From an uncultured Prevotellaceae bacterium (lineage in GTDB: Bacteria > Bacteroidota > Bacteroidia > Bacteroidales > Bacteroidaceae), in contig CAMKEM010000009.1 of assembly GCA_946411565.1 (NCBI GenBank), positions 1 to 64,000 of the forward strand: a stretch of DNA of 64,000 nucleotides, written 5' to 3'. Position numbers and translations under genes: made by a program. Shown here in pieces: positions 17,399-51,177 of the stretch. Below the pieces are notes generated by a model that made no database searches, had not been told where the DNA came from, and worked only from the letters and a program-made list of their open reading frames with translations. Position 1 is the first letter of the stretch; each line of letters starts with the position of its first letter.

Positions 17399-20300
17399 TT
17401 ATTTTACCACATAGTTAGAACCTGGGGTTCTTCCTGTGAATACAGGAGAATAGGTACAGGTCGCTGTAGCTGTGCCTGAAGTGTAGTTACCGCTTCTTGC
17501 CACATAGTATGATGTCTTGATCACATGTGTGCCTTTGCTCAACATATTGTAACAATATTCTGTCTTAGTGTCACGGATAATCTTGTATGTGCCGTGGCTA
17601 TATCCAGAGAGCTGTTCTACAGGTTCAAGACAAGCCGGACGATTATCAGTTACGGTCACAAAGTCATAGTCGCGGTCTGCTGTGATTGTTATTGTCACCT
17701 CAACCTTGTCGCCAACCTTTAGCTGTTTGTTAGGGCTCTCAACCTTTCTCGTAATTGAAAGCCCTGTTGAAGACTCCTTGCTTTCTGTGGCAGTCTGCTT
17801 GTATTCAATGAACACATTTGTCCAAGACTCACCGTCTGTATGCTTGGTAACTGTAAGGGCATTGTCCTTTGAGGTGATGTCCTTTGAAGTCTTAACATAG
17901 CCAAGCGCAGAGGTGTATTCCTGAGCCGGCATTCTTGTCTTGCCTAATGCTATGTCTGCAGGTACGCCTTTCCTAAGTGAAGAGGTAATGCCTTGTGATG
18001 GGCATAGGAAGGCATAGATTGCATCTACTGCATTTATAGGAGTATCCCAAGACTGGGTTCTCTTACTCTGCAACAACCAGCGCTTCATGTCTGCTATTTC
18101 TTTTGCGGAGTTCTTGCCGTCTATTAGTTTCAGAGCCTCAATAACAGAAACCTGAGTTGGGATCTTATAGTCGTACCAAGAGTAAAGTGCGCGGTCAGAA
18201 TCAAAGTATCTGCCAAGATCCTCACGATAAACAGTATGCTCCACTATGCTCTTGATAAACTCAGAAGCCTTATTCTTATTGCCAGAATATGAGAGAATGA
18301 CGGCAGCCTGTGCCTTTGTCCTCATATCATCATAGCGCGTTTCCTCTGGAACAAGCTTTAGCAGATAATCGGCATTACTATTGCTTTTGATATTTGTGCC
18401 AGAAGCCTTGGCGATAGCCCTGCAATAGAGATAGTCAAGGGCATAGTAAGGAAGATACTTGAATTTCTCCTTCTTCATCTCTGCCACTCTTTTGGCAATC
18501 TCTTTGTCAAGGAAGTTGAAAGAACGCTTAATCAACTGCTCATTCTGCTTTTTGAACTTCTCGTCGTTCATCATGAGATTAAGACGCACAAGTGTCTTCA
18601 GAACCTGAACAGTCATATATGTACTACCGTTCATGCCTTTCCACCAACTCCAGGAACCGTCGCTGTTCTGAAGATTTGAAAGACGGCTAAGAATATCGTT
18701 ATTACGATAATTGATAGAGGTAGAATCAAAGAGCTGTTTCAACTCGTCAGACTTCCACTCATCTACGGCTTTCCTTATCTCTGGATTTGTGCGTGCTATG
18801 CCAGATGCTATGCTGTTAGCATAATATGCGGAAGAAAGACAAATCGCACACTCGTCATAGTATTTTGAGATATAAGGCAGGGCCTTTATCATCAGCCATT
18901 CAGGAGAATCCGTATATTCTACTGTGAGGTGCTTGTCATTGACAGATGGCATGATCTTCTTCAAATCAAATGTCTTTTCTCCTGTCTCTGTAAGGATGAA
19001 TGTCTGGGTGTTCACCATTAATTCCTTCTGTGAAAGAATCGGCAGATCTTTCTGCTCGCCGTCTGTGAAAGTGCCTTCCTCGCTCTTGCCAGAAACGCTA
19101 TAACGCACGATTATAGACTTGTCTTCCTGATTTCTTGAGTCGTAAGGGAAAGAGACTGCCTCGCTCTCGCCAGCCTTGACGTTTATCTTCTTGCTTTGAG
19201 TTGCGAGAACCTTTTCTGTCTTTGCATCAAGAACGGTGAACTTCACAGTTGCCGTAATATCCTTGTCTGTTATATTTGATACAGAAGCCGGAATGTCTGT
19301 CACGTCACCTTCACGCAAGAAGCGAGGCAGACGAGGCTGAATCATCAGTTTCTTTTGTGCGATGACCTCATCTGTCATAGTGCCAAACTTCACATCCTTA
19401 TCATGTGCAAATGCCATGAACTTCCATGTCGTGACACTCTCAGGAAGAGTGAAAGATAATGTTGCTATGCCTTTATCGTCAGTTCTTAACTGAGGCATGA
19501 AGAATGCAGTCTCGTTGAGGTTAGTGCGGATTGTTTCTTCTTCCGCATCATAATCTTCTTCCTCCGCAGAAACACATTGCATTTCCATTTCATCATTCGC
19601 AACAATAGATTCTTTTGCCTTGAGTATTTCCCCTGTTTCTGCTTCCATAGATGAATATCCCTTTACTATGATTCTATTGCTTGCTTTCAATGTCGCAACT
19701 CCATAGGCGACAGGAGCACTATATTTGAAGGAATGATAGGACAGGCCATCTGTTAAAGTCGAGAATTCAAGTGACTTATATGTGTAATATTTAGTAGGCT
19801 TTGAGTAATGTAGGTATATGCCCGTATTTCCTCTATTGGTACGCCAATGGAATGAAGGGGTAACCAAGAGCCTTGTGTCAGAGAAATTCCAAGAATGCTC
19901 CATTATTGCATCAAGTGACTTGTCGTAAAGTACAGCCATCACATTGGCATTTGCAGGCTTACCGTCCTTGTCTGTTACAGAAAGTTTCCATTCTTCCTTC
20001 TGTCCAGGTTCAAGCTTATTGCGGAATGTTGTCCAGTTGAGTTTGAGCTTGTGATTTGGAAGTGGGCGAGTAATAGTATGACAATGTTCATAAAACTCTC
20101 CATTGCGAACCCAGGCAACAGTATAGCATATACCATCACCGTATTCTTCCTTGTACTCAAATTTGCGTGTAACAAGTGAAGAATCAAGTTTCAAAGAACC
20201 AGACTCTATAACCTTAGATCCGCTGAAAAGGGTATAGACAGCGTGAACATCTTTTTCGCAAGTGCCAAACTGGATAGTTGCAGGAAACTTATCTCCTGTG

Positions 20301-22759
20301 GCATACCACCAGTCTTTTGTTTCTGTTGCAGGAACCTTGTCTTCAAGGCTAAACAGCACGAACTTTTTTTCAATAGTGTCAGTCCCACAAATCGCCCTTA
20401 TAAAATGGGATTTGGTAGGGATTTGCATAGGAATTGCATAGGCCTTGCCACAGACTGCCTTTCCTTGCTCTTTTCCGTCAATTTCAATGGAAACTTCACC
20501 GTCAATCTCTTTGCCTGCATTGTTCCTACGGGTAAATGTAATCTCAATAGGCTTGTCGCTTTTGAGATATTTATCTTTAATGTCGCTTGTGAGTACTGTA
20601 GAACGGTTGCTGAGTGGCAATAAGATTACCCCTTCGTGTGATTCTCCTGCAATATCCGTAACAACAGCAGTTGCATTGATACTGTAGAACATAGGTAACC
20701 AGTATCGTTTCTGGTCATCCTTGTTATTAGGTAGAACCATTGGCATCTTCATGAAGAAATTTCCAGATGCGTCAGTTTTTACCGTGTCTTGGAGTAATTC
20801 TGTGTTTTCATAAGGCGCTCTCCACCACCAAGCAATGCTTCTGCGGATTGTATATACAACCTTTGCATCGCTTACTGGAACACCACTATAGGTCTTGGCT
20901 GTTCCTGTAACTGTGATAGTATCACCATCTTTGTATTCAATCTCAGGCTTATTGATTGTCACCTCAAATGTAGGACGGACATATTCCTCTACGGTGATAC
21001 TTGCAGAGTATGAGTTTCCTGTCATTATGTGGAATGTTCCGTTTTTAACATTCGCGGGAATCACAAAGTCAGTAGTTGCCACGCCGAAATTGTCAGTCTT
21101 GACATTTGTTGAACAGACTTCCTTGTGGTCAGGGGCTTTAAGTGTAATGTTAATCTCTTTGTTCTCAATTGTTGATGTTGTCTCATGCCCGATTTCGTTG
21201 TAAGCAACTAATGAAACATGTACAGTCTGCCCAGGACGATATAATTTGCGATCTGTAAATACTGATGTTCTAAGTCTTGCTCTATTGTCCTTTTGATAGT
21301 CTGTATGACTTGTGTAAAGATATTGCGACTGCATTGCCTTGTCTTTGTCAGTTGTGGCAAAGGCGTATCGAGGCTCATTATCTTTTGTAAACTCACAGAT
21401 ATACTCTCCGTTTTCGTTTGTGTTCACAACTCTTGGATGTTCGTGTTCTTTTTTACCTGCCAGATGTAGCTGTGCTCCGGCAACAGTTTTGCCGGTAATG
21501 GCATTTACCACGACATATCTTTTCTGTGTCTTGCTCTGCTGAAGGGCAATGACTCTAAGGTCGCTGACTGTGAGAATACTCAAATTGTCCAGAGAAGAGA
21601 TGTTTGCACCATCACAGGTAACATCTATCAGATATGTACCAAGTGGAAGTGTTCCAAGCGAAAGACTGTCTTGGAAGAACTCGTATATCTCATGTTTGTC
21701 AAACTTTTTGGAGCAGGTGATTGCTTTTGCCTTTTGCAAGTGTTGTTTTAGTTTGGCAATATCGGCTTTCTTTCCATGTTCCAATTTGCTGATTTCTTCA
21801 GAAGCCAATCCTATTACAGGTGTGGCAGAAACTTTTATGTTTGATACGTTCCTGACATTCTCAAAATAGATCTTTACATCTTGGTTTGTATTGAATATGC
21901 CAGATTTGTTCGTTGTCTGTATATTGATATTAGGGGCAGTAAGATCTGCTTTAGCATTTTTTAGTTCATTTATTTCCTGCCATTTAGGCCATCTTTTTAT
22001 GGCTTCATCTATCCATTCTATAGCCTTTTTCCTGTTTTTGATGTCGTAATTGTCAAATAAACGATATTTTCTTACGGCGATGGCACCACACTCATTAAGG
22101 TCGCTATATACGGTAATTAGTGAGTCTGCTTTTTGTATTAATCTGGTTGTTTCTGCGTCGTCAAAAGCGTTGTCTTCCAGCATGAGGGTAGCTGCTATAC
22201 ATGCAGCCTTTCTGTTGCCTGTCTCTGAGTAATAACGTACAAGTGGTTCATAGTCAACTATAGTGTAAGCTATGAGGCTTATAAGGTCGTGACAGAAATA
22301 CTGGCTGTCAATTCCTTTGCTTACAAGTGGAATATACTTTAGTGCTCCGTTTTCCTTTGTCAGTTCGTTTACGATTTCTGGAGTTGTATGGTAGAGTAGG
22401 CTATCAATCATGGGGCTGTCAGAGCCGTTTTTTGCTACATGATATATACAAGCTGCTACTGGAGCTGTTTTTGAGAGTTCCTGATACTTTGCCTCCATAC
22501 GCTTTTCCATAGGGGCAATAGAGTCTCTTGAAATCTCATCAAGAAGGTTTTTCTCTGTAAAGAGAGCAGCAAACAGATGACCATAATACTTTTCCTTTTC
22601 TGCCTTTTCCTCAATCTTCCTTACGGCAGACAGGGCAGTTTTGGGCTGATCCTTCTCCTGGGCATTTTCGCATTGCTTCCAGAGGGAGGTGTAGTCTCCC
22701 TGTGCTGACATTCCTAATACCAGCACAGAGAGTAGCAATATGGTCAATATTCTTTTCAT
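17399..22759 (-). CDS. Large bacterial alpha-2-macroglobulin family protein
   Basis: MG repeats, bait-region-like acidic segment, FTDRKLYRPGQTVHVSLVAY, LPESVTTWKFMAFAHD, terpenoid-cyclase-like segment NLQNSDGSWSWWKGM. Confidence 0.92.
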   Translation of the reverse strand: MKRILTILLLSVLVLGMSAQGDYTSLWKQCENAQEKDQPKTALSAVRKIEEKAEKEKYYGHLFAALFTEKNLLDEISRDSIAPMEKRMEAKYQELSKTAPVAACIYHVAKNGSDSPMIDSLLYHTTPEIVNELTKENGALKYIPLVSKGIDSQYFCHDLISLIAYTIVDYEPLVRYYSETGNRKAACIAATLMLEDNAFDDAETTRLIQKADSLITVYSDLNECGAIAVRKYRLFDNYDIKNRKKAIEWIDEAIKRWPKWQEINELKNAKADLTAPNINIQTTNKSGIFNTNQDVKIYFENVRNVSNIKVSATPVIGLASEEISKLEHGKKADIAKLKQHLQKAKAITCSKKFDKHEIYEFFQDSLSLGTLPLGTYLIDVTCDGANISSLDNLSILTVSDLRVIALQQSKTQKRYVVVNAITGKTVAGAQLHLAGKKEHEHPRVVNTNENGEYICEFTKDNEPRYAFATTDKDKAMQSQYLYTSHTDYQKDNRARLRTSVFTDRKLYRPGQTVHVSLVAYNEIGHETTSTIENKEINITLKAPDHKEVCSTNVKTDNFGVATTDFVIPANVKNGTFHIMTGNSYSASITVEEYVRPTFEVTINKPEIEYKDGDTITVTGTAKTYSGVPVSDAKVVYTIRRSIAWWWRAPYENTELLQDTVKTDASGNFFMKMPMVLPNNKDDQKRYWLPMFYSINATAVVTDIAGESHEGVILLPLSNRSTVLTSDIKDKYLKSDKPIEITFTRRNNAGKEIDGEVSIEIDGKEQGKAVCGKAYAIPMQIPTKSHFIRAICGTDTIEKKFVLFSLEDKVPATETKDWWYATGDKFPATIQFGTCEKDVHAVYTLFSGSKVIESGSLKLDSSLVTRKFEYKEEYGDGICYTVAWVRNGEFYEHCHTITRPLPNHKLKLNWTTFRNKLEPGQKEEWKLSVTDKDGKPANANVMAVLYDKSLDAIMEHSWNFSDTRLLVTPSFHWRTNRGNTGIYLHYSKPTKYYTYKSLEFSTLTDGLSYHSFKYSAPVAYGVATLKASNRIIVKGYSSMEAETGEILKAKESIVANDEMEMQCVSAEEEDYDAEEETIRTNLNETAFFMPQLRTDDKGIATLSFTLPESVTTWKFMAFAHDKDVKFGTMTDEVIAQKKLMIQPRLPRFLREGDVTDIPASVSNITDKDITATVKFTVLDAKTEKVLATQSKKINVKAGESEAVSFPYDSRNQEDKSIIVRYSVSGKSEEGTFTDGEQKDLPILSQKELMVNTQTFILTETGEKTFDLKKIMPSVNDKHLTVEYTDSPEWLMIKALPYISKYYDECAICLSSAYYANSIASGIARTNPEIRKAVDEWKSDELKQLFDSTSINYRNNDILSRLSNLQNSDGSWSWWKGMNGSTYMTVQVLKTLVRLNLMMNDEKFKKQNEQLIKRSFNFLDKEIAKRVAEMKKEKFKYLPYYALDYLYCRAIAKASGTNIKSNSNADYLLKLVPEETRYDDMRTKAQAAVILSYSGNKNKASEFIKSIVEHTVYREDLGRYFDSDRALYSWYDYKIPTQVSVIEALKLIDGKNSAKEIADMKRWLLQSKRTQSWDTPINAVDAIYAFLCPSQGITSSLRKGVPADIALGKTRMPAQEYTSALGYVKTSKDITSKDNALTVTKHTDGESWTNVFIEYKQTATESKESSTGLSITRKVESPNKQLKVGDKVEVTITITADRDYDFVTVTDNRPACLEPVEQLSGYSHGTYKIIRDTKTEYCYNMLSKGTHVIKTSYYVARSGNYTSGTATATCTYSPVFTGRTPGSNYVVK

Positions 22760-27935: not shown

Positions 27936-28014
27936 TGATTAAATATATTTTTCGGAATACAATTCCAGATGCAAAATTAATCAATAAATCTGAGATTTCA
28001 AAATAAAACAAAAA

Positions 28015-28063
28015 AAAGATGAACGAGTGCCATTATTTATTGTAATGATACCCGTTCATCTTT
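28015..28063 (-). terminator. Terminator downstream of sORF1
   Basis: aaagatgaacg...cgttcatcttt stem followed by T-rich tract on - strand. Confidence 0.7.
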
Positions 28064-28088
28064 CTTTGATTATGATGCAATCAACATA

Positions 28089-28226
28089 TTATTGTGCATC
28101 ATCGTACTCCTCATCGGTGAAACCTCCATTGAATGGATCTTTTTCTTCTGGCTGGCTCACCATGAGTGGCTCGATTGCTTTCATGAATCTTGCGCGGAAA
28201 TATGGAGCTTTATATTCTTTTTTCAT
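28089..28226 (-). CDS. Unannotated small ORF 1 (45 aa): MKKEYKAPYFRARFMKAIEPLMVSQPEEKDPFNGGFTDEEYDDAQ
   Basis: Read from the sequence; ATG 18 nt after the stop of the upstream surface protein, ends before a terminator; resembles sORF2. Confidence 0.7.
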   Translation of the reverse strand: MKKEYKAPYFRARFMKAIEPLMVSQPEEKDPFNGGFTDEEYDDAQ

Positions 28227-28244
28227 ATTTTATGCCCTTTCTTA

Positions 28245-29927
28245 TTATTTTACTACTGTCTTAGATACCTCAACTGAACCATCAGAGTAAGTTTTCTTTA
28301 CGATGTTAAGACCATTAACTGGCTCGTTAGAGATCTGACCATTTGCTGAGATGTACTGAACAGATACTACGTCGCTGCTGTTTACAACACCGTCAATAGC
28401 AGTAGTCTCTGCATTGTTAAAGTCGGCATTGATGGTTTCAACTGTACCATCTTCATCAATGAAGAGAACAATTGCGTTGTCAAGCTTCGCATTTCCTGAT
28501 GTTGGAATATATTCGAAGTAGCAACGACCTGGCTTCATTGTAGAATTCTTATTGAGCTTGCCGAAATGACCATTCTCTGCTACAATATATCCGTGGTCAG
28601 CGAGTTTAGCGTCTGAACCCTTGATTGGCTCAAATGTACCACAGAATCGAGCACCATTGTAACTTGCTGTTTTAACATCCTTTGTTGCCCACACAGTAGT
28701 ACCCATATCACCAGTCAGCTCACTTGCGTTATTACCGATTTCCAATAAGTATGGAGTGTTTGCAACGATGACATCTGTCGTTATTGTTGAAATCTCATTC
28801 TTCTGCTCATCATAGCCAGTAAGTCTTCCCATTCTTCTGAACACGTCTAATGCGCTTGAGATGTTGAATGGAACTACTATTGTGCCGTATGCGTCAGCTT
28901 TGAAGTTGCGATAGTATTTTGTTGTGCTTGCAACGAAGTTCTTATAAACATAAATCTCCTGACCATTGTCGGAAATCTCATAGCTGCTACTATTCTGACC
29001 TACTACGATATTCTTGCCAGATGCGTTTGCTCCTGTTGCGAAATATGCAATTCGGTTGTCGTTGATATCTGTTGATACAGCACCGAGGATACTTGCATTG
29101 CTGAAATCATAGTTAAGGTATGTATATGCTGGTTCATTGAGAATAGCCTCTACCTTGCCGTTATCAACAACTCCAGATACAAAACCTACTTTGCCATCAC
29201 CTGTTACTGTGTATGACTCATATCCCTCTGCAATTGCAGTTGGGTTGTATGTAACATAACAGTTGTTGTATATAGTACCACGTGCATAGTCACCGTCAAT
29301 ATTAAGAATTGGCAGGAACTTATTTCTACGGAAATTCATGTAATAGAGTTCGTCAACGATTTCTACACCATCGTCATCTTCATCTATTACTGTGTTGTTC
29401 CATTTTGCTGATTTAAGTTCTGTACCAGTGAAAATGATAGCAGGCTGGATGTTTTTTATCTCAGTACATGCAACTATGTATTTTGCAAATTCTTTTGAAG
29501 TCTTATTTGGAGTATATGCGCTCACATAGTTACCAGACATTTTTGTATAAACAATATCCTCCTCCTTTACTACTACATCATAGATAGTCGTGCTTGATTT
29601 AACACGCTCTGTAAATGGTGCAATGTTACTTGAGGTTGCTGAGGCATTAGTCAGCTTTACGTTGTAAATGAGATTACAGTCGCTGACCGTAACTCTCAAG
29701 TCACTTTTCAAAGTAACCTTGTACTGGTCGGTGTTTATGTCAAATGAACGTCCATTTGAATAAAGAGTGTCACCTTTTTCTGAGTTGGCATCGAGATCTT
29801 TCACGGTGTCATAAGAATAGGTGTTTCCGTATTTGTCAGTGACAGTTGCGGAAGTCTTGCTTTGCGCGAACAAAACGTTTACGCTTGCAGAAAGAACTGC
29901 TGTTAAAAGTAATAATCTTTTCTTCAT
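28245..29927 (-). CDS. Secreted surface protein with C-terminal module shared with the BspA-like protein; probable T9SS cargo
   Basis: Signal peptide MKKRLLLLTAVLSASVNVLFAQ; C-terminal ISANGQISNEPVNGLNIVKKTYSDGSVEVSKTVVK. Confidence 0.75.
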   Translation of the reverse strand: MKKRLLLLTAVLSASVNVLFAQSKTSATVTDKYGNTYSYDTVKDLDANSEKGDTLYSNGRSFDINTDQYKVTLKSDLRVTVSDCNLIYNVKLTNASATSSNIAPFTERVKSSTTIYDVVVKEEDIVYTKMSGNYVSAYTPNKTSKEFAKYIVACTEIKNIQPAIIFTGTELKSAKWNNTVIDEDDDGVEIVDELYYMNFRRNKFLPILNIDGDYARGTIYNNCYVTYNPTAIAEGYESYTVTGDGKVGFVSGVVDNGKVEAILNEPAYTYLNYDFSNASILGAVSTDINDNRIAYFATGANASGKNIVVGQNSSSYEISDNGQEIYVYKNFVASTTKYYRNFKADAYGTIVVPFNISSALDVFRRMGRLTGYDEQKNEISTITTDVIVANTPYLLEIGNNASELTGDMGTTVWATKDVKTASYNGARFCGTFEPIKGSDAKLADHGYIVAENGHFGKLNKNSTMKPGRCYFEYIPTSGNAKLDNAIVLFIDEDGTVETINADFNNAETTAIDGVVNSSDVVSVQYISANGQISNEPVNGLNIVKKTYSDGSVEVSKTVVK

Positions 29928-30146
29928 ATTATGTATTTTTTTATCTATTCCTGTTGAATTAATGTATCTATATCCCTTTCATCATATAGAATCCTGTGAT
30001 ATGTGCATATTCGGGTGCAAAAATAACATTTTTTTTCGAACTGACCAAATTTTGGTAAAAAAAAAAGAAAAAATTAACAAAAACATTGAATATGAAAAAG
30101 AAACGATTGTGTGGTTTCTATGTCCGGTGCTTTGTACTATTATACC

Positions 30147-30180
30147 CAAAAAAGAGGAAAGACGTGCTTTCCTCTTTTGG
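30147..30180 (-). terminator. Terminator downstream of sORF2
   Basis: ccaaaaaagaggaaagacgtgctttcctcttttgg hairpin. Confidence 0.7.
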
Positions 30181-30200
30181 TTTTATTAGTAAATATACAC

Positions 30201-30359
30201 TTATTCATCATATTCTTCGTCTTCTGAATCCCAGAATCCTATTGAACCTTTGGCGTCAAGTTTTCCATGACCAGGGCCGATATATGAACTTTCGAGAATG
30301 TTGTTCCATGCAGTGAAGGTGGCAACTTTTATCTCAGGTGAAATATATCTTTTTTTCAT
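30201..30359 (-). CDS. Unannotated small ORF 2 (52 aa): MKKRYISPEIKVATFTAWNNILESSYIGPGHGKLDAKGSIGFWDSEDEEYDE
   Basis: Read from the sequence; ATG 9 nt after the BspA-like stop codon, ends before a terminator; resembles sORF1. Confidence 0.7.
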   Translation of the reverse strand: MKKRYISPEIKVATFTAWNNILESSYIGPGHGKLDAKGSIGFWDSEDEEYDE

Positions 30360-30368
30360 CTTGTATAT

Positions 30369-32903
30369 TTATTTTGTAATTTTCTTTGTTGAGCCATTAG
30401 AGTATTTAACGATGTTGATACCCTTTGTTAGCTCATTTTGCTTTCTACCGTTGATGTCGTAGATTGCGATGATTTCTTCAGAGTCGTTACCTACGGTTTC
30501 AATGCCAGTAGTCTCTTCTGTCATCTCGTCTTCGTCAAGACACATGATAGAAATCTTTGTGTTTGCGAACTTGCCTTCAGACTCTCTGTCGATAATGTCA
30601 AGATACCATCTGTTTGCTTTCAGGTAGTCCTCTTTTTCTGCGAGCTTGACACCACCGCCTGCCATTGCGTAATAATTTCCTGCTACCAACTCATTTCCAT
30701 CCATTGGTCTGTATGTACCATAGAAAACATATTTTGTTGAAACAGAAGCGCAGTCTATAGAGTTGTATTCTGCTTTTCTGAGAATAGCGTTGTTAACAAC
30801 TATGGTCTGTGGATCGTCGGATGTCTGCTTTGCTCTTATAACACATGGTGTGTGAGCCTTGATAGTCTTGCCATCCTTCTGTTTTACAACCTCGATGAGT
30901 GTGCGGTCGATAGTACCATTGTCATCATCGTCAAACTGGTGTATGTTATTTACGATAGCAACCTCGAATTTGCCTTTCCAGTCGTTGTATGACATATCAA
31001 ATGGAACGTAGAGACTTTGCCAGTTGGTGTTCGTGAATGTTCTTGAATAAACAATCTGTTTAGCTGCTGTATCTTCCTTTCTGTCGTATTTTGTGCCATC
31101 TACCATTGTGAATGTTCCGAATGAAACAGATACACTACACTTAGCACGTGCTGCGCCATCTCCTGAAATTGCTGTGAGTGTTGCATTGCCAGGACCAACA
31201 GCGATAATGTTTCCATTCTCGACTTTTGCTACAGCCTCATCAGTAGTAATCCAGATAACATTTTTATATGTTGCATCTGAAGGACCTACTGTAGCTTTGA
31301 CAGGGATGCTATTGCCTACTTCCATAATTGCATTTGTCACATTGAGTGTGACGCTGGTTGCAGGAACGAATGACTTTCTTACTAAAATGTCGCACTTTGC
31401 TGATTTGCCTGTTCCATCGGCAGCAGTACATGTGATGATTGCAGAACCTTCCTCAGCTCCAGCGATAAATGTACCTGTGCTTGGATCCAGAATTGTAATT
31501 ACATCGTCGTTACTACTTGTGAATATTACATCCTTTACACGAGCGTTATCGGGATTGATGGTTGCTTCCAACTTGCCAGACTTTGTTGTAAGTACAACCT
31601 TGGATGTGTTGTCAAGCTCGATTGATTCAACATGTACGATATCAATGTCGGCAACGTAGTGGCCTGCATAGTTTGACCAGTTTGTCGCATTCTCAAAAAT
31701 GCTCTTCATCAGAGTAAACACATGAATCTTTGTGCCATCTGTAACTTGGAAAGGAGTATTATCGTTGAGGGCAATCTTGCTTGGGATATTGTTGATGTAG
31801 AAATTCTCAACGTTAGTTCTATTGAATGCATTAGTGGCAATTGAAGTAACGGATTCTGGGATTTCTACTTTGTTGATAGTTGTTCCGTTGTTGTAGAATG
31901 CTTGTGCACCAATAATTTCCAGACCTTCTGGGAGTGTAATGTTTGTCAATTTACATCCGCTGAAGGTTGAAGCCTGAATCTCTGTGATGCTTCCTGGAAT
32001 GTCAATGCTTATGAGACCTGAGTTCTCGAAAGCTGAAGTTCCAAGGTCATATACAGATGTAGGCAAATTGACATTAGTAAGAGCTTTACATCCTTTGAAT
32101 GCAGAACTTCCAATGATACCTACACCATCTTCGATAGCGACATGTGTCAGGTTGGTACAGCCTCTAAATGCGTTAGAGCCAACCTCTGAAAGAGTAGAAG
32201 GGAGTACGATGTTTGATGACAATGAAGCCGCATTTCTGAATGCATCGCTGCCAAGGAGAGTCAAGCTTGATGGGATGTTGGCGCTTGCCAACTTAGAGCA
32301 GTCCCAGAAAGCTCCATCTTCGATTTGCTTGAGACTGTTTGGCATAACAATATTTGTTATTTCGCTACATCCGTTAAAGGCGAACTTTTTGATCGTTTTT
32401 ACGTCTTCTGGTACGATGAAAGAACCAGAAATCGTTTTTGGACAGAAAATAAGCTCTGTCTGAGTCTTGTTATACAATACACCATTAAGATCAGCATAGA
32501 AATATGCACTTGTAGGATCTACGGTAATTTTAAGAACATTGCTCTCGTCAAATGCCTGTGCGCCAATAGTGCTGACTGTGCTTGGGATTTGTACGCTTTT
32601 GAGGTTTGGACATCTGTAGAATGCCTTTTCCTGAATGCTTGTAACAGTATATGTTTCGCCCTCCACGTTAATAGTAGAAGGGATCTGTACTGTATTGGTA
32701 TAGTAACCATAGCCTTCACCAAGATACTGGGTGTTGGTTACAGTGGCAGTACCAAATCCATTGATTAAGAAGTGGATACCATTGACGTTTGCATGTTTTT
32801 CCTCTTTGGCGTCCCCATACTGAGCCTTAGCACCCATCCATGAGGCGCTTACTGTAAGGAGTAAGAGCATGAAGCTCAAGAATTTACGAGTAGATTTGTT
32901 CAT
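30369..32903 (-). CDS. BspA-like leucine-rich repeat surface protein with Big2-type Ig-like domains and T9SS-like C-terminus
   Basis: Repeated LRR_5 units (NVNLPTSVYDLGTSAFENSGLISIDIPGSITEI); Big2-like VKATVGPSDATYKNVIWITTDEAVAKVENGNIIAVGPGNATLTA; C-term IAIYDINGRKQNELTKGINIVKYSNGSTKKITK. Confidence 0.88.
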   Translation of the reverse strand: MNKSTRKFLSFMLLLLTVSASWMGAKAQYGDAKEEKHANVNGIHFLINGFGTATVTNTQYLGEGYGYYTNTVQIPSTINVEGETYTVTSIQEKAFYRCPNLKSVQIPSTVSTIGAQAFDESNVLKITVDPTSAYFYADLNGVLYNKTQTELIFCPKTISGSFIVPEDVKTIKKFAFNGCSEITNIVMPNSLKQIEDGAFWDCSKLASANIPSSLTLLGSDAFRNAASLSSNIVLPSTLSEVGSNAFRGCTNLTHVAIEDGVGIIGSSAFKGCKALTNVNLPTSVYDLGTSAFENSGLISIDIPGSITEIQASTFSGCKLTNITLPEGLEIIGAQAFYNNGTTINKVEIPESVTSIATNAFNRTNVENFYINNIPSKIALNDNTPFQVTDGTKIHVFTLMKSIFENATNWSNYAGHYVADIDIVHVESIELDNTSKVVLTTKSGKLEATINPDNARVKDVIFTSSNDDVITILDPSTGTFIAGAEEGSAIITCTAADGTGKSAKCDILVRKSFVPATSVTLNVTNAIMEVGNSIPVKATVGPSDATYKNVIWITTDEAVAKVENGNIIAVGPGNATLTAISGDGAARAKCSVSVSFGTFTMVDGTKYDRKEDTAAKQIVYSRTFTNTNWQSLYVPFDMSYNDWKGKFEVAIVNNIHQFDDDDNGTIDRTLIEVVKQKDGKTIKAHTPCVIRAKQTSDDPQTIVVNNAILRKAEYNSIDCASVSTKYVFYGTYRPMDGNELVAGNYYAMAGGGVKLAEKEDYLKANRWYLDIIDRESEGKFANTKISIMCLDEDEMTEETTGIETVGNDSEEIIAIYDINGRKQNELTKGINIVKYSNGSTKKITK

Positions 32904-36616: not shown

Positions 36617-37957
36617 ATGGATAATCAACAAGCCACTTTGGAGCTGGGCACAAAGCCCGTTGGACGATTGCTAATGCAGTATGCCCTTCCTGCTATCGTT
36701 GCTATGGTTGCAGCCTCGCTCTATAACATGGTGGACAGCATCTTTATTGGCCAAGGCGTTGGCGTTTTAGCTATTTCGGGATTGGCAATCACCTTCCCAT
36801 TCATGAACCTGTCGGCTGCCTTTGGCGCGGCTATTGGTGTGGGTTCTTCTACATTCATAAGTGTCAAACTTGGTCAGCGTGACTATGGTATTGCCAACAA
36901 GGTGCTTGGCAACTGTGTGATGCTGAATATTGTCGTAGGCGTTATCTTCGGAGGCCTCTGCCTGTTGTTCCTTGATCCTATTCTAAGGTTCTTCGGAGCA
37001 TCGGACAATACACTTCCGTACGCTCGGGATTATATGCAGATAATTCTTCTGGGTAATGCCTTTACGCATCTGTACTTCGGATTGAATGCCGTACTTCGCT
37101 CGGCAAGTAAGCCTCGCCATGCGATGTATGCCACGATATTTACGGTTGTGCTCAATACGATTCTCGACCCTGTCTTCATCTATGGTTTGGATATGGGAAT
37201 CCGTGGTGCAGCCTTTGCTACGATACTCTCTCAGGTTATAGCTCTTTGCTGGCAATGGAAACTGTTCTCTAATAAGAATGATATCCTGCATTTCGACTAT
37301 AGCCTGTTCAGAATAGACAAGCCGATCGTGAAGAATATCATAGGTATAGGCATGTCGCCTTTCGCTATGAACTCATGTGCTTGTCTGGTGGTGATATTCA
37401 TAAACACCTGCCTTATGAAGTATGGTGGAGACCTTGCCGTTGGCGCATACGGAATTGCAAACAGAATAGGTTTCGTCTTTGTGATGGTGACAATGGGTGT
37501 GAACCAGGGAATGCAGCCAATAGCAGGCTATAACTATGGTGCGCAGAACTATGACCGTCTTCGTAAGGTTGTTAAGCTTGCCATAATCTGTGCAACGATT
37601 GTTTGTACGATAGGTTTCCTTGTTGCTATGTTTGCTGCATATCCTTGTGCAAGACTCTTTACTAAGGATGAGCAGTTGATAAACCTTGCAGAGACAGCCA
37701 TAAGGATGATGATGATGATGTTCCCTATTGTGGGATTCCAGATAGTAGTAACCAATTTCTTCCAGAGTACGGGCAAGGCAAAGGTGAGTATGTTCTTGTC
37801 TCTGTCTCGTCAGTTGCTGTTCCTTGTTCCTGCCCTTGCAATCTTCTCTAAGATATGGGGGCTTTGGGGCGTGTGGATTGCAATGCCGTTCTCTGATGCC
37901 CTTGCTACAATAGTAGCGGCAGTAATGATGAAAAAATCGAGCGTATGGAAAAAGTAA
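36617..37957 (+). CDS. MATE family efflux transporter
   Basis: 12-TM pattern; PVGRLLMQYALPAIVAMVAASLYNMVDSIFIGQGVG. Confidence 0.93.
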   Translation: MDNQQATLELGTKPVGRLLMQYALPAIVAMVAASLYNMVDSIFIGQGVGVLAISGLAITFPFMNLSAAFGAAIGVGSSTFISVKLGQRDYGIANKVLGNCVMLNIVVGVIFGGLCLLFLDPILRFFGASDNTLPYARDYMQIILLGNAFTHLYFGLNAVLRSASKPRHAMYATIFTVVLNTILDPVFIYGLDMGIRGAAFATILSQVIALCWQWKLFSNKNDILHFDYSLFRIDKPIVKNIIGIGMSPFAMNSCACLVVIFINTCLMKYGGDLAVGAYGIANRIGFVFVMVTMGVNQGMQPIAGYNYGAQNYDRLRKVVKLAIICATIVCTIGFLVAMFAAYPCARLFTKDEQLINLAETAIRMMMMMFPIVGFQIVVTNFFQSTGKAKVSMFLSLSRQLLFLVPALAIFSKIWGLWGVWIAMPFSDALATIVAAVMMKKSSVWKK

Positions 37958-38562
37958 TTATCAACGTAGGTCGTCAGGTTGGCTGTGGCGGTAGAGAGAT
38001 TGCCCAGTTGCTTGCAAAGGAGTTTGATGCTCGTTTGCTCGATAAGGAACTTCTTGACCTTGCTGCAAAGGAGAGTGGTTTCTCGGCAAAGCTATTCAAA
38101 CAGCACGATGAGCATAGAGGGTTCCTTAATCATCTGTTCCATTTCCGTGGAACGGTTACTTCAGGTAACTTCTATGAGGACAAACTCTCGCCAGAGGCAT
38201 TGTTCAAGTTTCAGAGCGATGCTATCAGAAAAGCTGCGAGTGAAGGCTCATGCGTGTTTATTGGCAGATCAGCTGACTATGTGCTCAGGGATATGAAGAA
38301 TGTGGTCAATGTCTTCATCCATGCAGATATGGAAGATCGCATAGCATGTGTGTCAGAGGTGAAGCTGTGCGATAAAGAAACTGCTCGAAAGCTCATAGAG
38401 AGAAAGGAAGAGGAAAGAGCAGCCTACTATAACTATTACACAGGAAAGAAATGGGGAGATTCCAGAAGCTACGATCTCTGTGTTAATTCTTCGCTGTTAG
38501 GAATAGAGGGTACTGCAAGGCTCATCTCTGGGTTTGTGCGTGATGTGATTTCAAAAAAGTGA
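37945..38562 (+). CDS. Cytidylate kinase-like family protein
   Basis: IINVGRQVGCGGREIAQLLAKEFDARLLDKELLDLAAKESG; overlaps the MATE gene end. Confidence 0.88.
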   Translation: MEKVIINVGRQVGCGGREIAQLLAKEFDARLLDKELLDLAAKESGFSAKLFKQHDEHRGFLNHLFHFRGTVTSGNFYEDKLSPEALFKFQSDAIRKAASEGSCVFIGRSADYVLRDMKNVVNVFIHADMEDRIACVSEVKLCDKETARKLIERKEEERAAYYNYYTGKKWGDSRSYDLCVNSSLLGIEGTARLISGFVRDVISKK

Positions 38563-38603
38563 GTGGAAACTTTCTTTAATACAATATTTAAATACTTAGA
38601 CAA

Positions 38604-39782
38604 ATGAAAAAGATTTTATTGTTAGGTTCCGGGGAACTTGGTAAGGAGTTCGTTCTTGCTGCAAAGCGTAAGGGCGTTTACGTAATAGCATGTGATAAAT
38701 ATGATAATGCCCCAGCTATGCAGGTTGCAGACGAGCGTGAGGTGTTCTCTATGCTCGATGGTGATGCACTTGCTGCTGTGGTTAACAAGCATAAGCCTGA
38801 TATCATCGTACCTGAGATTGAGGCTATCCGTACAGAGCGCCTCTTCGACTTTGAGAAGCAGGGAATCCAGGTTGTACCTTCTGCCCGTGCGGTGAACTTC
38901 ACAATGAATCGTCAGGCAATCCGTGACCTTGCTGCCAAGGAACTTGGACTTAGAACCGCAAAGTATTTCTATGCTAAGACATACGAGCAGCTCGTAGAGG
39001 CAAGCAAGGAGATCGGTTTCCCTTGTGTTATCAAGCCTCTTATGTCTTCTTCAGGTCATGGTCAGAGCACGGTTAAGACCTTTGAGGATTTGAAGCCTGC
39101 TTTCGATGCTGCTATGGCTGGTGCTCGTGGTGATGTTAAGGAGGTTATCATCGAGGAGTTTATCCACTTCACTTCAGAGTTTACTCTTCTTACTGTTACT
39201 CAGAAGAATGGTCCTACACTTTTCTGTCCTCCTATCGGACACGTTCAGGTGGGTGGTGACTATCGTGAGTCTTGGCAGCCATATCAGATTTCTGAGAAGG
39301 ATTTGAAGGATGCTCAGGATATGGCGGACAAGGTGACAAAGGCTTTGACTGGCTATGGAATCTGGGGTGTAGAGTTCTTCTTGACAGACACAGGTGTTGT
39401 GTTCTCTGAGCTTTCTCCACGTCCACATGATACAGGTATGGTTACACTTGCTCATACAACAAACCTCTCTGAGTTTGAGCTTCATCTTCGTGCGGTTCTT
39501 GGACTTCCTATCCATGATATTCGTCTTGAACATGCAGGAAGTTCTGCGGTTATTCTTGCTGATAAGGAATATGAAGAGGCTCCAGAGTATAACCTTGTTG
39601 ATGCCTTGAAGGAGGAATGTACTCGTGTTCGTATCTTTGCAAAGCCAGGAGGACATTTCGGTCGTCGTATGGGCGTAACCCTTTGCTATGGTGCTCCAGA
39701 TGCAGATGTTAATGCGCTTCGTGAGAAGGCAAAGCGCCTTGCAAAGACAGTTCTCGGAACTGATCCTTACATGGATAAGTAA
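38604..39782 (+). CDS. purT: Formate-dependent phosphoribosylglycinamide formyltransferase
   Basis: [84 protein letters not shown]. Confidence 0.96.
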
Positions 39783-39784
39783 TA

Positions 39785-41698
39785 TTGGTAATGTCTTTAA
39801 GGAAAAGAATCATAGAAGGAATAATGAGCATGGGAAAGTCGCTATTCTCTAAGGATAGTCTTGGCTTTCTCGTGTTCATGTATGCTCTTGGCATAGTGGA
39901 AAGCTATGCGGTTCTTTCGCATTGGAAAGGAGCAAAGGTTTATGAAAACCTATACTATGAACTTTTCCTTGATTTGCTGGTACTTGTATTTTTTGTTGCT
40001 CTTGTTCCACGGAAGATAGGGAAATTTCCTTTGCGTGCAACTGTCAGGGGCATTATCTGTGCCATTGCCTATTTGCTTGCCATTATAGATACGTTCTGTA
40101 TGGTACAGTTTGGCAATACTATTAGTCCTTCGATGCTGTTGCTTGTCGGAGAGACCACGGGAAATGAGACCGCTGAGTTCCTGAGCACATACGTTAATCT
40201 TGAGTTTGTGTTTACAACAGAACTCGGGTGGGTGTTGCTCGTATTGCTGGTGCATATTCTTTGGAAATGCCTGAAGTCTAAAGGGGAAAAGCTTTTGACA
40301 AAGATTTGGGGTAGTTCGGCTATCTTTCATTTCTCGTCCTATGCTAATCGCCTTTTCCCTTATGCCTTTTGTCTTTTCGCATTAGTCGTATTGAGTATAG
40401 GTTGGGATGCCTGTGTCATTAATAAGAAATGTATGATAAGGCATTTTAGTTGCAAGACTGTTGGCGATGTGGAGAAGGATATGAATATTCGTCCGATGGT
40501 GATGATGTATCAACCCGTTTATCGTCTTACAGATGCAATCTTTACCAATCGTCTTGTTGCTCTTCAGCTTGATCGATTGAAGGAGGAGGCAGAGAAGGTA
40601 GAACGGATGACTCCAGAACAACTTGGAATTCCTTCGGATTTGAAGGATTCCAAACCTTCGAATATCGTCCTTATCATTGGCGAGAGCTTCAACAAGTATC
40701 ATTCTCAGCTCTATGGCTATGAAAAGAAGAATACTCCACGTCAGGTGAGGCTTGAGAAGGGCGGACGACTGGTGAAGTACTCCGATGTCATGGCACCGTG
40801 GAATCTCACGAGCTTCGTCTTCAAGCACCTTATGACTACCTATACCGTTGGCGATGATGGCGATTGGTGCGACTATCCGCTTTTCTGTCAGTTGTTCCGT
40901 AAGGCTGGCTATCAGGTCAATTTCCTCACCAATCAGTTCTTGCCTCATGCCAAGGATGCAATATATGACTTCAGCGGCGGCTTCTTCATCAACGACGAGA
41001 TGCTGAGTAAGGTGCAGTTTGATGTAAGGAATGAAGAGACACACCTCTGGGATGAGGATCTGTTGAAGGATTATGCTCGACTTGTGGCTCCACCAGAAGG
41101 TGTTGTTGATACTGCCTCGGTTCCTTCTCTTACAATCTTCCATCTTATGGGACAACATGTGAATTATCGCATTAGATGTCCGAAGCAGAAGATGAAGTTC
41201 TTCCCAGAAGACTATGATTGTCCGCAGAATACGCAGAAAGAGAAAAGGAATATTGCATTTTACGATTGTGCTGTGTGGTATAATGACTCAGTTGTTGGTG
41301 CTATCGTTGATAGGTTCAAGAATGATGATGCTATAATCATCTATTTCCCAGATCATGGGGATGAGGTATATGGACCTGGCTCTTTGCATCATTGTGGACG
41401 AAATCACACGACGAATATCACCAAAAACATCGCCCAACAGGAATATGAGATACCGATGTGGTTCTATTGGACAAAGAAATATGCCAAGAGTCATCCTGAT
41501 GTGGTGTCTTCAATAAGGAAGGCAAAGAATAAACCTTTTATGACCGATGCAGTATCGCATCTTCTGCTTGGTCTTGCTGGAATAAAATGCAAGGATTATC
41601 GTCCGCAACTGGATTTGCTCAGTCCGCAGTATAACGAGAAGAGACAGCGATTGATGCAGCATCTTGTGGATTATGATGAAGTAGTAAAGGATAAATGA
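39785..41698 (+). CDS. Sulfatase-fold phosphoethanolamine transferase-like membrane enzyme; likely start ATG 39791
   Basis: N-terminal TM segments; NIVLIIGESFNKYHSQLYGYEKKNTPR, DDAIIIYFPDHGDEVYG, EIPMWFYWTKKY. Confidence 0.88.
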   Translation: MVMSLRKRIIEGIMSMGKSLFSKDSLGFLVFMYALGIVESYAVLSHWKGAKVYENLYYELFLDLLVLVFFVALVPRKIGKFPLRATVRGIICAIAYLLAIIDTFCMVQFGNTISPSMLLLVGETTGNETAEFLSTYVNLEFVFTTELGWVLLVLLVHILWKCLKSKGEKLLTKIWGSSAIFHFSSYANRLFPYAFCLFALVVLSIGWDACVINKKCMIRHFSCKTVGDVEKDMNIRPMVMMYQPVYRLTDAIFTNRLVALQLDRLKEEAEKVERMTPEQLGIPSDLKDSKPSNIVLIIGESFNKYHSQLYGYEKKNTPRQVRLEKGGRLVKYSDVMAPWNLTSFVFKHLMTTYTVGDDGDWCDYPLFCQLFRKAGYQVNFLTNQFLPHAKDAIYDFSGGFFINDEMLSKVQFDVRNEETHLWDEDLLKDYARLVAPPEGVVDTASVPSLTIFHLMGQHVNYRIRCPKQKMKFFPEDYDCPQNTQKEKRNIAFYDCAVWYNDSVVGAIVDRFKNDDAIIIYFPDHGDEVYGPGSLHHCGRNHTTNITKNIAQQEYEIPMWFYWTKKYAKSHPDVVSSIRKAKNKPFMTDAVSHLLLGLAGIKCKDYRPQLDLLSPQYNEKRQRLMQHLVDYDEVVKDK

Positions 41699-42750
41699 TA
41701 AAAATAAGTAAAACGGAATCTCAGGCGATGCGTGGAATTGCCATCCTCGCTATCGTATTACATAATTACTGTCATTGGCTCGGTAAGATGGTTCAGGAGA
41801 ATGAATACCAGTTTTATGAGCGTAATGTCAGGCGATTGATGGTTGAGGTTGCTCATCCTTCCTGGGAACTTATTGCTCATCTCATCTCTTTCTTCGGTCA
41901 TTATGGTGTGCCTGTGTTCGTGTTTCTTAGTGCCTACGGATTGGTTATGAAGTATGAGAAATCTCCGTTAGTGGTTGACGCTAATGAAGAAGGGGCTTGG
42001 ACTTTCATCTGGAAGCATTATAAGAAGCTTTTCCTGATGATGATTGTAGGATATTCCGCATACGTCATGGTTGATTATATGACACCTGCACCTCGTAGAT
42101 ATGAGTTCTGGAATGTAGTCGGTCAGTTAGGTATGTTCAGTAATCTCTACAAGGATCCCGATCATGACATCTGGCCAGGACCTTATTGGTACTTTGGTTT
42201 AATGGTGCAAATATATATAGTATATCGCTTGGTATTCTATCCCCAGAAACTGCGGACTAACAAATGGCTTATCGGTGTACTGTTCGCCGTCACCCTCCTT
42301 GCGCAGTTGTTCTTCTTGCCAGAAGGATTGTCTCTTCAATGGTATCGCTATAATGTGTTTGGCTCTCTGCCTGTCTTCATAGCAGGACTACTGTTCGCCC
42401 GACATAACCGTTTCAACGAACCTACACGCACCACATTCATCGGTCTCGCCATTGCAAGCATGGCTTTGATATTCCTGTTCAGCCTTTGGTTCGCTACGTG
42501 GATTATCGTGCCTTTCCTCATCTGCATAGGTACGGTGGCAATCGTCAAGCTTCTTCCGCAATCCCTGCTGAATATCTTTTCATGGGTTGGCGGTATATCT
42601 GCGGCTATGTTCGTGTGCCATCCAATAACAAGAAAGGTGATTATCCCGATATCACGTCATGGTGACCTCTTTGCTGGATTGTTGCTGTATCTCGTTGCCA
42701 CCATCGTTCTGGCGATGATATTTAAGAAGGTGATGGCACAATTTAGGTAA
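41695..42750 (+). CDS. Acyltransferase 3 family membrane protein
   Basis: Multi-TM; AMRGIAILAIVLHNYCHW, PVFVFLSAYGLVMKYEKS. Confidence 0.82.
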   Translation: MIKISKTESQAMRGIAILAIVLHNYCHWLGKMVQENEYQFYERNVRRLMVEVAHPSWELIAHLISFFGHYGVPVFVFLSAYGLVMKYEKSPLVVDANEEGAWTFIWKHYKKLFLMMIVGYSAYVMVDYMTPAPRRYEFWNVVGQLGMFSNLYKDPDHDIWPGPYWYFGLMVQIYIVYRLVFYPQKLRTNKWLIGVLFAVTLLAQLFFLPEGLSLQWYRYNVFGSLPVFIAGLLFARHNRFNEPTRTTFIGLAIASMALIFLFSLWFATWIIVPFLICIGTVAIVKLLPQSLLNIFSWVGGISAAMFVCHPITRKVIIPISRHGDLFAGLLLYLVATIVLAMIFKKVMAQFR

Positions 42751-42798
42751 TTAGGAACTTGCGTAGCTCGATAAGCTTGCGAATAATTTGTAACTATT

Positions 42799-43860
42799 TT
42801 GAAAATAAAGGACATAGACCTCGTAAATGTCTCTCGATTTAGAGCGGAGCACATGGGAATGGCGATGCTTTTCGTCATTCTCTTCCACGTTGGATTACCA
42901 AGGTGGAGTGATTTCTATGGTCTCCGTAGAATGGGAAACCTCGGTGTGGATATGTTCCTGTTCCTCTCTGGCGTTGGTCTGTGGTTCTCATGGGCAAAGA
43001 CCTCGCTTTTGCGGACAGGCTCCCTCCCTATGGGGAAGGGAGGGGGGAGAGGCCTTTTTTTCAAAAATTGGTTCTCTTTCTATATGCGCCGCTTAAAGCG
43101 CATCTATCCTGTATGGCTCATAATAGCGTGTTTATATTATATACCGAGATTTGACGGAGAGCATTGGATTGATCTTTTTGGTGATATCCTAATCAACTGG
43201 GATTTTTGGCTGCATGATGAGTTGACCTTCTGGTATATTCCAGCCACTATGATGCTGTATATTTTTGCACCGCCATATATGGAATTGATACGTCGTCACC
43301 CCATTTATCATTGGCTTGTACTCGTTATGGTGATGTGGTGCATACTCGTTCAATGGGTAACGCCTATACATCGGGCTGTTGGTCATATAGAGATATTCTG
43401 GAGCCGTGTGCCAATATTCTTCCTCGGAATCAATATGGGTGAGATGGTCAGGCAGAAGAAAAGCCTTGACGGACAATGTATCTGGATGGTGTGGATAATG
43501 TTCCTTATGTCGCTCTGTACGAGTATCTGGCTCGAACAAGAGATACACGGAAAGTTCCCTCTCTTCATTGAGAGAATGCTTTACATCCCACTCACCGTAA
43601 CCACCATCATTCTTCTCAACCGTGTGTTCCGTAGAACTCCACAGTGGTTTAATAAGAGCGTGGCGTGGTTTGGCGTTTTGAGTCTTGAGGCATATCTTAT
43701 TCATATAGAATTTGTACTCAAGCCACTTGAAAAGAACACAGATCTTGGATATTGGATGACATTCTTCATTACTGTTGCCGTAACAATGCCTTTGGCATGG
43801 CTTTTACATTTCTTGGTTAACAATGTCATCCTGAAATATTTATTTTGCAAACAAAAATAG
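42799..43860 (+). CDS. Acyltransferase 3 family membrane protein (carries an in-frame palindromic-element insertion); apparent TTG start
   Basis: MLFVILFHVGLP, NLGVDMFLFLSGVGLWFSWAK, FYMRRLKRIYPVWLI. Confidence 0.87.
   Translation: MKIKDIDLVNVSRFRAEHMGMAMLFVILFHVGLPRWSDFYGLRRMGNLGVDMFLFLSGVGLWFSWAKTSLLRTGSLPMGKGGGRGLFFKNWFSFYMRRLKRIYPVWLIIACLYYIPRFDGEHWIDLFGDILINWDFWLHDELTFWYIPATMMLYIFAPPYMELIRRHPIYHWLVLVMVMWCILVQWVTPIHRAVGHIEIFWSRVPIFFLGINMGEMVRQKKSLDGQCIWMVWIMFLMSLCTSIWLEQEIHGKFPLFIERMLYIPLTVTTIILLNRVFRRTPQWFNKSVAWFGVLSLEAYLIHIEFVLKPLEKNTDLGYWMTFFITVAVTMPLAWLLHFLVNNVILKYLFCKQK
43011..43055 (+). repeat. G/C-rich palindromic element inside the acyltransferase CDS
   Basis: gcggacaggctccctccctatggggaagggaggggggagaggcct; encodes RTGSLPMGKGGGRG. 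Confidence 0.87.
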
Positions 43861-43864
43861 CACG

Positions 43865-44740
43865 ATGAAAAATATCATCCGACTTACGCGACCATACCAA
43901 TGGGCTAAGAATATCTTCATACTGTTGCCGATGTTCTTCGGTGGTGCTCTTACTGATTTATCGTCAGCCAAGATGGCTCTGATGGCTTTCTTTGCGTATA
44001 GCTTTGCTGCTTCTGCAATCTACTGCTATAACGACATAATTGATGTGGAGGACGACCGTAAGCACTCGGAGAAGTGCCATCGCCCGATAGCATCAGGTGC
44101 GCTGAGCGTTGCCCAGGGCTATGTCATCATGGCATTGATGATGGTGCTATCAGCAGTAATCATAGCGTTGATGGGCGACAGGGCTTTGCTTGTCGGTGGT
44201 GTGGTGGTAGCATATTTCATTCTCGACATACTCTATTGCCGATTGCTGAAGCATTATGCCATAGTTGATGTGTGCGTGTTGTCATTCGGCTTCGTGCTGA
44301 GGATTCTTGCGGGAGGCTTTGCCACGAACATAACGCCTTCAAACTGGCTTGTGATGATGACCTTCCTGTTAACCCTCTTCCTTGCCTTTGCCAAGCGTAG
44401 GGATGATGTGGTGAGGATGCTGAAAACGGGTGAGGCACCTCGACACAACACGGAGAGATATAACCTCACTTTCATCAATCAGGCTGTGACTATCACGGCG
44501 GCGGTCACGGTGGTGAGCTATATAATGTACACGGTATCACCTGCCGTCACCCAGCGCATAGGTTCTGACTATGTTTATCTCACTTCCGTCTTCGTGATTC
44601 TCGGTTTGCTGAGATACATGCAGCTAACGCTTGTTGACGAGAAGAGCGGTGACCCGACGAAGATGCTGTATTCCGACCACTTCCTACAGTTGGTTATCGC
44701 GATGTGGTTCGCCGCGTACCTTATTATAATATATGTATAA
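43865..44740 (+). CDS. UbiA-family prenyltransferase, decaprenyl-phosphate phosphoribosyltransferase-like
   Basis: IRLTRPYQWAKNIFILLPMFFGG, YCYNDIIDVEDDRKHSEKCHRPIASG. Confidence 0.9.
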   Translation: MKNIIRLTRPYQWAKNIFILLPMFFGGALTDLSSAKMALMAFFAYSFAASAIYCYNDIIDVEDDRKHSEKCHRPIASGALSVAQGYVIMALMMVLSAVIIALMGDRALLVGGVVVAYFILDILYCRLLKHYAIVDVCVLSFGFVLRILAGGFATNITPSNWLVMMTFLLTLFLAFAKRRDDVVRMLKTGEAPRHNTERYNLTFINQAVTITAAVTVVSYIMYTVSPAVTQRIGSDYVYLTSVFVILGLLRYMQLTLVDEKSGDPTKMLYSDHFLQLVIAMWFAAYLIIIYV

Positions 44741-44766
44741 AGCCCCCCACCCCCCAAGGGGGAGTT
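44738..44766 (-). repeat. G/C-rich palindromic element abutting the UbiA stop codon
   Basis: taaagccccccaccccccaagggggagtttttt. Confidence 0.8.
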
Positions 44767-44796
44767 TTTTAGATAGTAATTAATAACTGATAAAGA

Positions 44797-51154: not shown

Positions 51155-51177
51155 TTATTAATTCGTGATTAATACAA

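Follow-up and report, generated by a model that had tools for sequence, protein, structure and literature searches.

Small YxxP-leader proteins beside exported surface proteins in Prevotella-like bacteria: probable scattered precursors of an LPP-like peptide pathway

Introduction

The YxxP leaders of lasso peptide precursors bind PqqD-like RRE proteins. Phosphorylated lasso peptides of the paeninodin and pseudomycoidin type resemble the system considered here in having a YxxP or WxxP leader, a PqqD-like B1 protein, an HprK-like kinase and an NTP transferase. A further pathway, the Linear Polyphosphorylated Peptides (LPP; LppA, B, K, S, D, N), was described in 2026 from Bacillota, to which its authors consider it restricted, and Bacteroidota go unmentioned in their report (PMC13381572). 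The LPP precursor has the leader YxxPxVLxHQxIxFETxxS, and its YxxP is held by N33 and D70 of the LppB RRE (PMC13381572). The LPP kinase phosphorylates Ser3 of the core and does not act on Thr or Tyr, cleavage of LppA by the peptidase falls just ahead of A1-Q2-S3, and a capsule-locus setting has been reported for LPP in Bacilli (PMC13381572).

Here we describe a family of small proteins in Prevotella-like bacteria, starting from two short open reading frames (sORF1 and sORF2) in the genome of an uncultured Prevotellaceae bacterium. We found no description of this family in Bacteroidota in the literature on RREs, Bacteroidales RiPPs, ruminal lasso peptides and the type IX secretion system (T9SS). 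The window, that is, the whole stretch of DNA analysed, comprises 64,000 nucleotides of one contig.

Results and discussion

Two small genes behind two exported surface proteins

The two small genes, their partners and the predicted parts of their products are as follows.

28008..28067, minus strand: terminator-like hairpin and T run behind sORF1 (strong hairpin at about 28018-28061, then T8)
28089..28226, minus strand: sORF1, ATG start, 45 aa, predicted precursor peptide
28155..28157, minus strand: sORF1 Ser24 codon, predicted phosphorylation site (core position 3), from the position profile and by analogy with S3 of LppA
28164..28226, minus strand: sORF1 predicted leader with YxxP, residues 1-21 (MKKEYKAPYFRARFMKAIEPL), from the 81-member position profile, with the cleavage point placed by analogy with LppA
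28245..29927, minus strand: partner 1, exported protein of 560 aa that has a T9SS-type tail at its C-terminus and matches no Pfam family
30145..30180, minus strand: terminator-like hairpin behind sORF2 (12-bp stem, 30150-30178)
30201..30359, minus strand: sORF2, ATG start, 52 aa, predicted precursor peptide, with a relative in another genome (G001)
30288..30290, minus strand: sORF2 Ser24 codon, predicted phosphorylation site, from the position profile and by analogy with S3 of LppA
30297..30359, minus strand: sORF2 predicted leader, residues 1-21 (MKKRYISPEIKVATFTAWNNI), from the position profile, with the cleavage point placed by analogy with LppA
30369..32903, minus strand: partner 2, surface protein of 844 aa with BspA-type LRR and Big_2 domains and a T9SS-type tail at its C-terminus

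The initial annotation had described both small genes as paired with large secreted proteins, and re-reading the DNA bore this out: their coordinates, strand, ATG starts and sequences are exactly as reported, they begin 18 nt (sORF1) and 9 nt (sORF2) after the stop codons of their partner genes, and a hairpin lies 3' of each. Pfam and NCBIfam hold no family for either sORF, and the relevant NCBIfam matches are to lasso-precursor models alone and are weak (paeninodin family, E 0.0066). The small proteins carry no signal peptide.

Several other regions of the window encode surface-related functions. Another BspA-type LRR_5 protein is encoded at 60988-62151 on the plus strand, and a scan of the window showed no YxxP small ORF with it. 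The minus strand encodes a 1786-aa alpha-2-macroglobulin family protein (MG2, A2M and bMG10 domains) at 17399-22759. A long run of plus-strand genes at 36617-52608 contains MatE, ATP-grasp, sulfatase, acyltransferase, DUF6080, glycosyltransferase and polysaccharide flippase domains, and is probably a surface-polysaccharide locus.

A family under purifying selection

Exact matches to ATGAARAARNNNTAYNNNNNNCC number 12 in the same genome, compared with none for the reversed pattern. Short ORFs of the sORF type account for 11 of the 12. The suggestion that such proteins are common in Prevotella was borne out on a larger scale, with 455 exact MKKxYxxP matches in the DNA of 79 genomes of the genus against 33 for the reversed control, and up to 20 in one genome. 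These counts are lower bounds, as the exact pattern misses variant starts, which account for at least a third of the members in the window's own genome (MRKKY, MNKKY, MGKKY, MKSIY and MKKKKVY). The MKKxYxxP form is not phylum-wide, since counts of the DNA pattern in phylum-wide and order-wide samples were near those of the control.

One recurrent hit, MKKRYLAPS..C.PSVQPAIT, was rejected and excluded from the family. It is a very short ORF that is near-unchanged in many genomes, and we took it to be antisense, probably to a conserved coding gene. It occurs about once per genome of the genus (e.g., L035, L039, L044 and L129) and is a trap for small-ORF scans.

sORF1 and sORF2 belong to a real family that is under purifying selection. 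The pooled pN/pS is 0.39 over 13 non-independent pairs, whereas a value near 1 would have spoken against the coding potential proposed at the outset, and sORF2 differs from a 51%-identical relative by a dN of 0.34 and a dS of 0.92. Conservation does not extend to genomic position: the window pair is absent from 80 TrmB-anchored loci of relatives, and the pair of partner 2 and sORF2 was found in just one relative (L014 in G001). Individual pairs therefore turn over while the class persists.

Pairing with exported proteins

The C-terminal tails of both window partners follow the pattern (T)TGI...YxLxGxxV...KGxYIxNGKKxxxK. They are related to the T9SS type A sorting domain, although the match of the tails to its model (TIGR04183) is weak (of 28 tails, eight score an E of 1 or lower, the best 0.0015), and the sORFs themselves have no such tail. 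The genome encodes SprA (PF14349, 4e-217). With a tail profile (A1) we found about 64 tail genes in the genome, of which 17 have a hand-checked YxxP small ORF directly downstream; two further flagged downstream ORFs (L257 and L273) were false positives on reading. The median gap between tail gene and small ORF is 20 nt. Among loci that had been fetched for other reasons, in which tails were called by a profile since a regular expression misses variants, a YxxP small ORF follows three of eight tail genes, compared with one of 847 other long ORFs (Fisher P 2e-6).

The small size of these ORFs and their location ahead of a terminator could potentially be explained if they had a regulatory or attenuator role, or had arisen by chance behind large genes. 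We consider this highly improbable, given the 455 to 33 excess of the pattern, the near absence of such ORFs behind ordinary long genes, the low pN/pS and the conservation of protein motifs despite varied codons.

Some members do not follow a tail gene; they precede, by 13-110 nt, a gene that encodes either a fimbrillin-like lipoprotein or a secreted lectin-like protein (L033, L038, L042, L127, L128, L130, L131, L133 and L134). The common factor is an exported surface protein rather than the T9SS tail alone. The same observation bears on the possibility that each small protein is a dedicated secretion factor, either a T9SS accessory or, in the cytoplasm, a chaperone or pilot that maintains its partner in an export-competent state. 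Tight pairing with tail genes and the lack of a signal peptide would suit such a role, but members placed before fimbrillin-like and lectin-like genes would not, and about three quarters of the tail genes in the window's own genome have no small ORF.

A constant leader and a variable tail

We built a position profile from 81 unique family members, all located behind tail genes, in which the search pattern itself imposes Y5 and P8. Hydrophobic residues alternate further on (10, 12, 13 and 15), residue 21 is hydrophobic in 94% of members, and the commonest residue at position 22 is Ala. Ser occurs at position 24 in 56% of members and at position 25 in a further 25% (81% in total, against a background of 7.8%), while Thr reaches 5% at each of the two positions. 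Both sORF1 and sORF2 have Ser24. The remainder of the proteins is variable, rich in Gly, Pro and Asp, looks unstructured, and has an acidic, often aromatic end. DEEYD, which had been put forward as a shared acidic tail, is not a family motif; the tails are acidic and often contain W or Y.

Judged from these residues, the layout is that of a precursor peptide, with a putative leader (MKKxYxxP to the hydrophobic residue 21) followed by a putative core that bears the Ser and a variable acidic tail. A cut before residue 22, as predicted, would place Ser24 at core position 3.

An RRE, a putative kinase and a signal-peptidase-like protein beside rpoD

PqqD/RRE proteins (PF05402) occur in 71 of 80 genomes of the genus, mostly as a single stand-alone copy of about 90 aa. 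The RRE of the window's own genome (G000:C27:20360-20578, PF05402 2.1e-17) is on contig C27, and the sORFs are on contig C9. In most of ten genus genomes the gene order runs from rpoD through a secreted protein (about 150 aa), a P-loop kinase (about 300 aa) and a signal-peptidase-like protein (about 165 aa) to the RRE. The kinase and the peptidase adjoin the RRE in all ten genus loci that we inspected, and the window's own genome has all three (L374). In another genome of the genus (G386), a tail gene and its sORF lie directly after the RRE.

A search of the RRE profile against the PDB returned four matches alone, all of them RREs for lasso or LPP leaders (6jx3, 9x90, 9x8z and 5v1u). LppB (9x8z) was matched at E 0.035 over an aligned stretch of 58 residues, and TfuB1 at 5.7e-6. 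The Asn and Asp that correspond to N33 and D70 of LppB are invariant in our RRE alignment (A3), while paeninodin-type RREs have Gly and Gln where the Prevotella RREs carry these two residues. The peptidase has a weak PF00717 match (2.7e-5 in a relative), a weak sigpep_I match, and the motifs GxSM, HR and GD[GA]N, which would supply the Ser, His and Asp of a SipW-type enzyme. The kinase matches no Pfam model and stays below every NCBIfam cut-off. We classify it as a putative HprK-like P-loop kinase on the basis of its motifs and of weak similarity to ScmC, to HprK-related kinase A and, among generic P-loop matches, to HprK (1ko7, E 0.07). The similarity of the kinase and RRE to the NCBIfam models for SynChlorMet ScmC/ScmD and HprK-related kinase A is a weak profile similarity, far under the curated cut-offs.

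The roughly 150-aa secreted protein encoded between the rpoD and kinase genes is conserved (L374-L383; xVYMFGFAASFNDSTVYFTDIQELD) and has no Pfam or NCBIfam match. It may be part of the pathway.

The precursors could also belong to a different RRE-dependent product, such as a true lasso peptide or a radical-SAM-modified peptide, since their leader is like lasso leaders and a related cluster in another genome (L413) has two radical SAM genes. Such a product is very unlikely, as the lasso B2 protease is missing from nearly all genomes of the genus: its leader peptidase domain (PF13471) is over the cut-off in one of 80, and there is none in the window's own genome, for which reason a lasso reading was dropped. 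Beside the rpoD-linked cassettes that we inspected there is also no radical SAM protein or cyclase, and no macrolactam synthetase (C protein) was noticed beside any of the cassettes inspected, including those of other genera. The position of the conserved Ser sets the family further apart from the paeninodin and pseudomycoidin type, in which it lies at the C-terminus rather than at the core position 3 predicted here.

Related cassettes in other Bacteroidaceae

In other Bacteroidaceae genera, or as second copies, YxxP small proteins are encoded near the cassettes themselves (L400, L401, L402, L408, L409 and L413). The precursors of the first five loci have 19-20 residues from Tyr to Ser and leaders that end in F/I/M-A/C-A/S-S. 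An NTP transferase (NTP_transf_5), an ABC exporter and the capsule export genes wza and wzc lie beside some of the cassettes of other genera.

In four loci (L396, L399, L402 and L408), the cassette or its kinase is situated in a capsule or exopolysaccharide locus with wza and wzc. The L413 locus (G573:C5, 3901-13015) encodes three YxxP precursors, each about 130 aa long and with a Cys-rich core, along with two radical SAM proteins, two PqqD-like proteins, a kinase, an S24-like peptidase and an NTP_transf_5 protein. It is apparently an undescribed radical-SAM RiPP cluster in a Bacteroidaceae genome.

Co-occurrence of small proteins, cassette and T9SS

We compared mean exact-pattern counts in a sample of 100 other genomes of the Bacteroidaceae. 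The abundance of the small proteins follows the cassette, and does so among SprA-positive genomes as well, although just four of these lack it. Genomes with both SprA and the kinase averaged 4.19 matches (control 0.30), and genomes with neither averaged 1.27 (control 1.0). The four genomes that have SprA and lack the kinase were at background (mean 1.0, control 1.25). Genomes with the kinase and without SprA averaged 1.89, with 12 matches coming from a single genome (G491) and the remainder near background, which indicates that possession of the cassette is not by itself a predictor of the scattered family. Within the genus, the median was five matches in PqqD-positive and two in PqqD-negative genomes (P 0.0012, a value that overstates independence because the genomes are related). 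There are exceptions in both directions: one genome (G388) has 10 matches and no PqqD was found in it, and two (G016 and G385) have PqqD and one exact match each, which is the antisense artefact.

The genome with 12 matches (G491, g245) has 12 sORFs and tail-bearing partners, and no SprA (PF14349) match although it is rated 100% complete. SprA may be missing from the assembly, or the T9SS may have been lost.

The higher abundance of the small proteins in SprA-positive genomes would also be expected of dedicated secretion factors. However, such factors would not be predicted to fall to background in SprA-positive genomes that lack the cassette, nor to have relatives beside wzc in a SprA-negative genome, and the invariant part of the proteins is a short leader whereas the tail is variable and unstructured-looking. 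We regard a secretion-factor role as unlikely.

A separate possibility is that the YxxP start does not serve RRE binding but, for instance, acts as an adaptor for another protein, and that co-occurrence with the cassette reflects the shared ancestry of the Prevotella clade. The co-occurrence is partly phylogenetic, and the three exceptional genomes break it. Set against this, the spacing between Tyr and Ser is the same in the cassette-linked precursors of other genera and in the scattered family, and the RRE has kept the YxxP-binding residues. We therefore hold this explanation to be quite improbable.

A pathway that resembles LPP

Among the roles first listed for the sORFs (chaperone, secretion pilot, precursor peptide or regulator), that of a precursor gained support from the leader, the Ser, the variable tail, the cassette and the linkage in other genera, while a T9SS chaperone or pilot fits less well. 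It is likely, in our judgement, that sORF1 and sORF2 are scattered LPP-like precursors that are served by a single shared maturation cassette. The YxxP of leader residues 1-21 would be bound by the stand-alone PqqD-like RRE, encoded once in the genome, whose gene appears to form a cassette with those of an HprK-like kinase and a SipW-type Ser-His-Asp peptidase and, in most of the relatives inspected, adjoins rpoD. The kinase would phosphorylate Ser24, the conserved residue at core position 3, and the peptidase would take off the leader to leave a linear acidic phosphopeptide, which might exit the cell or act in the envelope. The candidate precursor genes lie directly behind, or less often before, genes for exported surface proteins that are mostly T9SS-tailed. 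As they are encoded beside such proteins, their product probably works together with the partner, or on it, at the envelope, and the pairing suggests a role in display, anchoring or function of the partner. This reading predicts a phosphorylated Ser, a leader cut site and three required genes.

The family shares with LPP a short precursor with a constant YxxP leader, a variable core and a Ser at predicted core position 3, as well as a stand-alone RRE with the YxxP-binding Asn and Asp, an HprK-like kinase and a SipW-type peptidase, as far as comparison of the proteins can tell. The Prevotella family strongly prefers Ser to Thr, and the LPP kinase takes Ser only. In other Bacteroidaceae genera the likeness extends to the capsule-locus setting, the NTP transferase and the ABC exporter near the cassettes. 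The differences are the phylum (Bacteroidota here, Bacillota in LPP), a Prevotella leader that has YxxP and a downstream Ser without HQ and FET, and a distance from Tyr to Ser of 19-20 residues in Bacteroidota precursors compared with 18 in LPP. Furthermore, the rpoD-linked cassettes inspected have no NTP transferase and no MsbA-like or other ABC exporter beside them, and the precursors are scattered and paired with exported proteins, whereas in LPP they are encoded within the cluster. Since the window's own genome has neither an NTP transferase or exporter in the locus nor a precursor in the cluster, we have not filed the system as a member of LPP. It is best called a pathway that would work like LPP, in which the unlinked, one-to-many arrangement, the other phylum and the pairing with surface proteins are what is new.

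Conclusion

We tentatively propose, as a possibility that we would still rate below even, that a shared rpoD-side cassette makes many different phosphorylated companion peptides, each of which is produced together with its own secreted surface protein and either acts on it or is delivered alongside it. These could together constitute a peptide arm of the T9SS and of envelope display in Prevotella-like bacteria, related or parallel to LPP. If this is true, a pathway published as restricted to Bacillota would be a core trait of a genus that ranks among the most abundant in the gut, rumen and mouth, with an unusual layout in which a single set of enzymes serves many unlinked substrates. A function would be assigned to hundreds of unannotated small genes, and a phosphopeptide tied to T9SS and fimbrial surface proteins would be revealed. 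The LPP family would thereby gain its first functional context, in the form of specific surface-protein partners.
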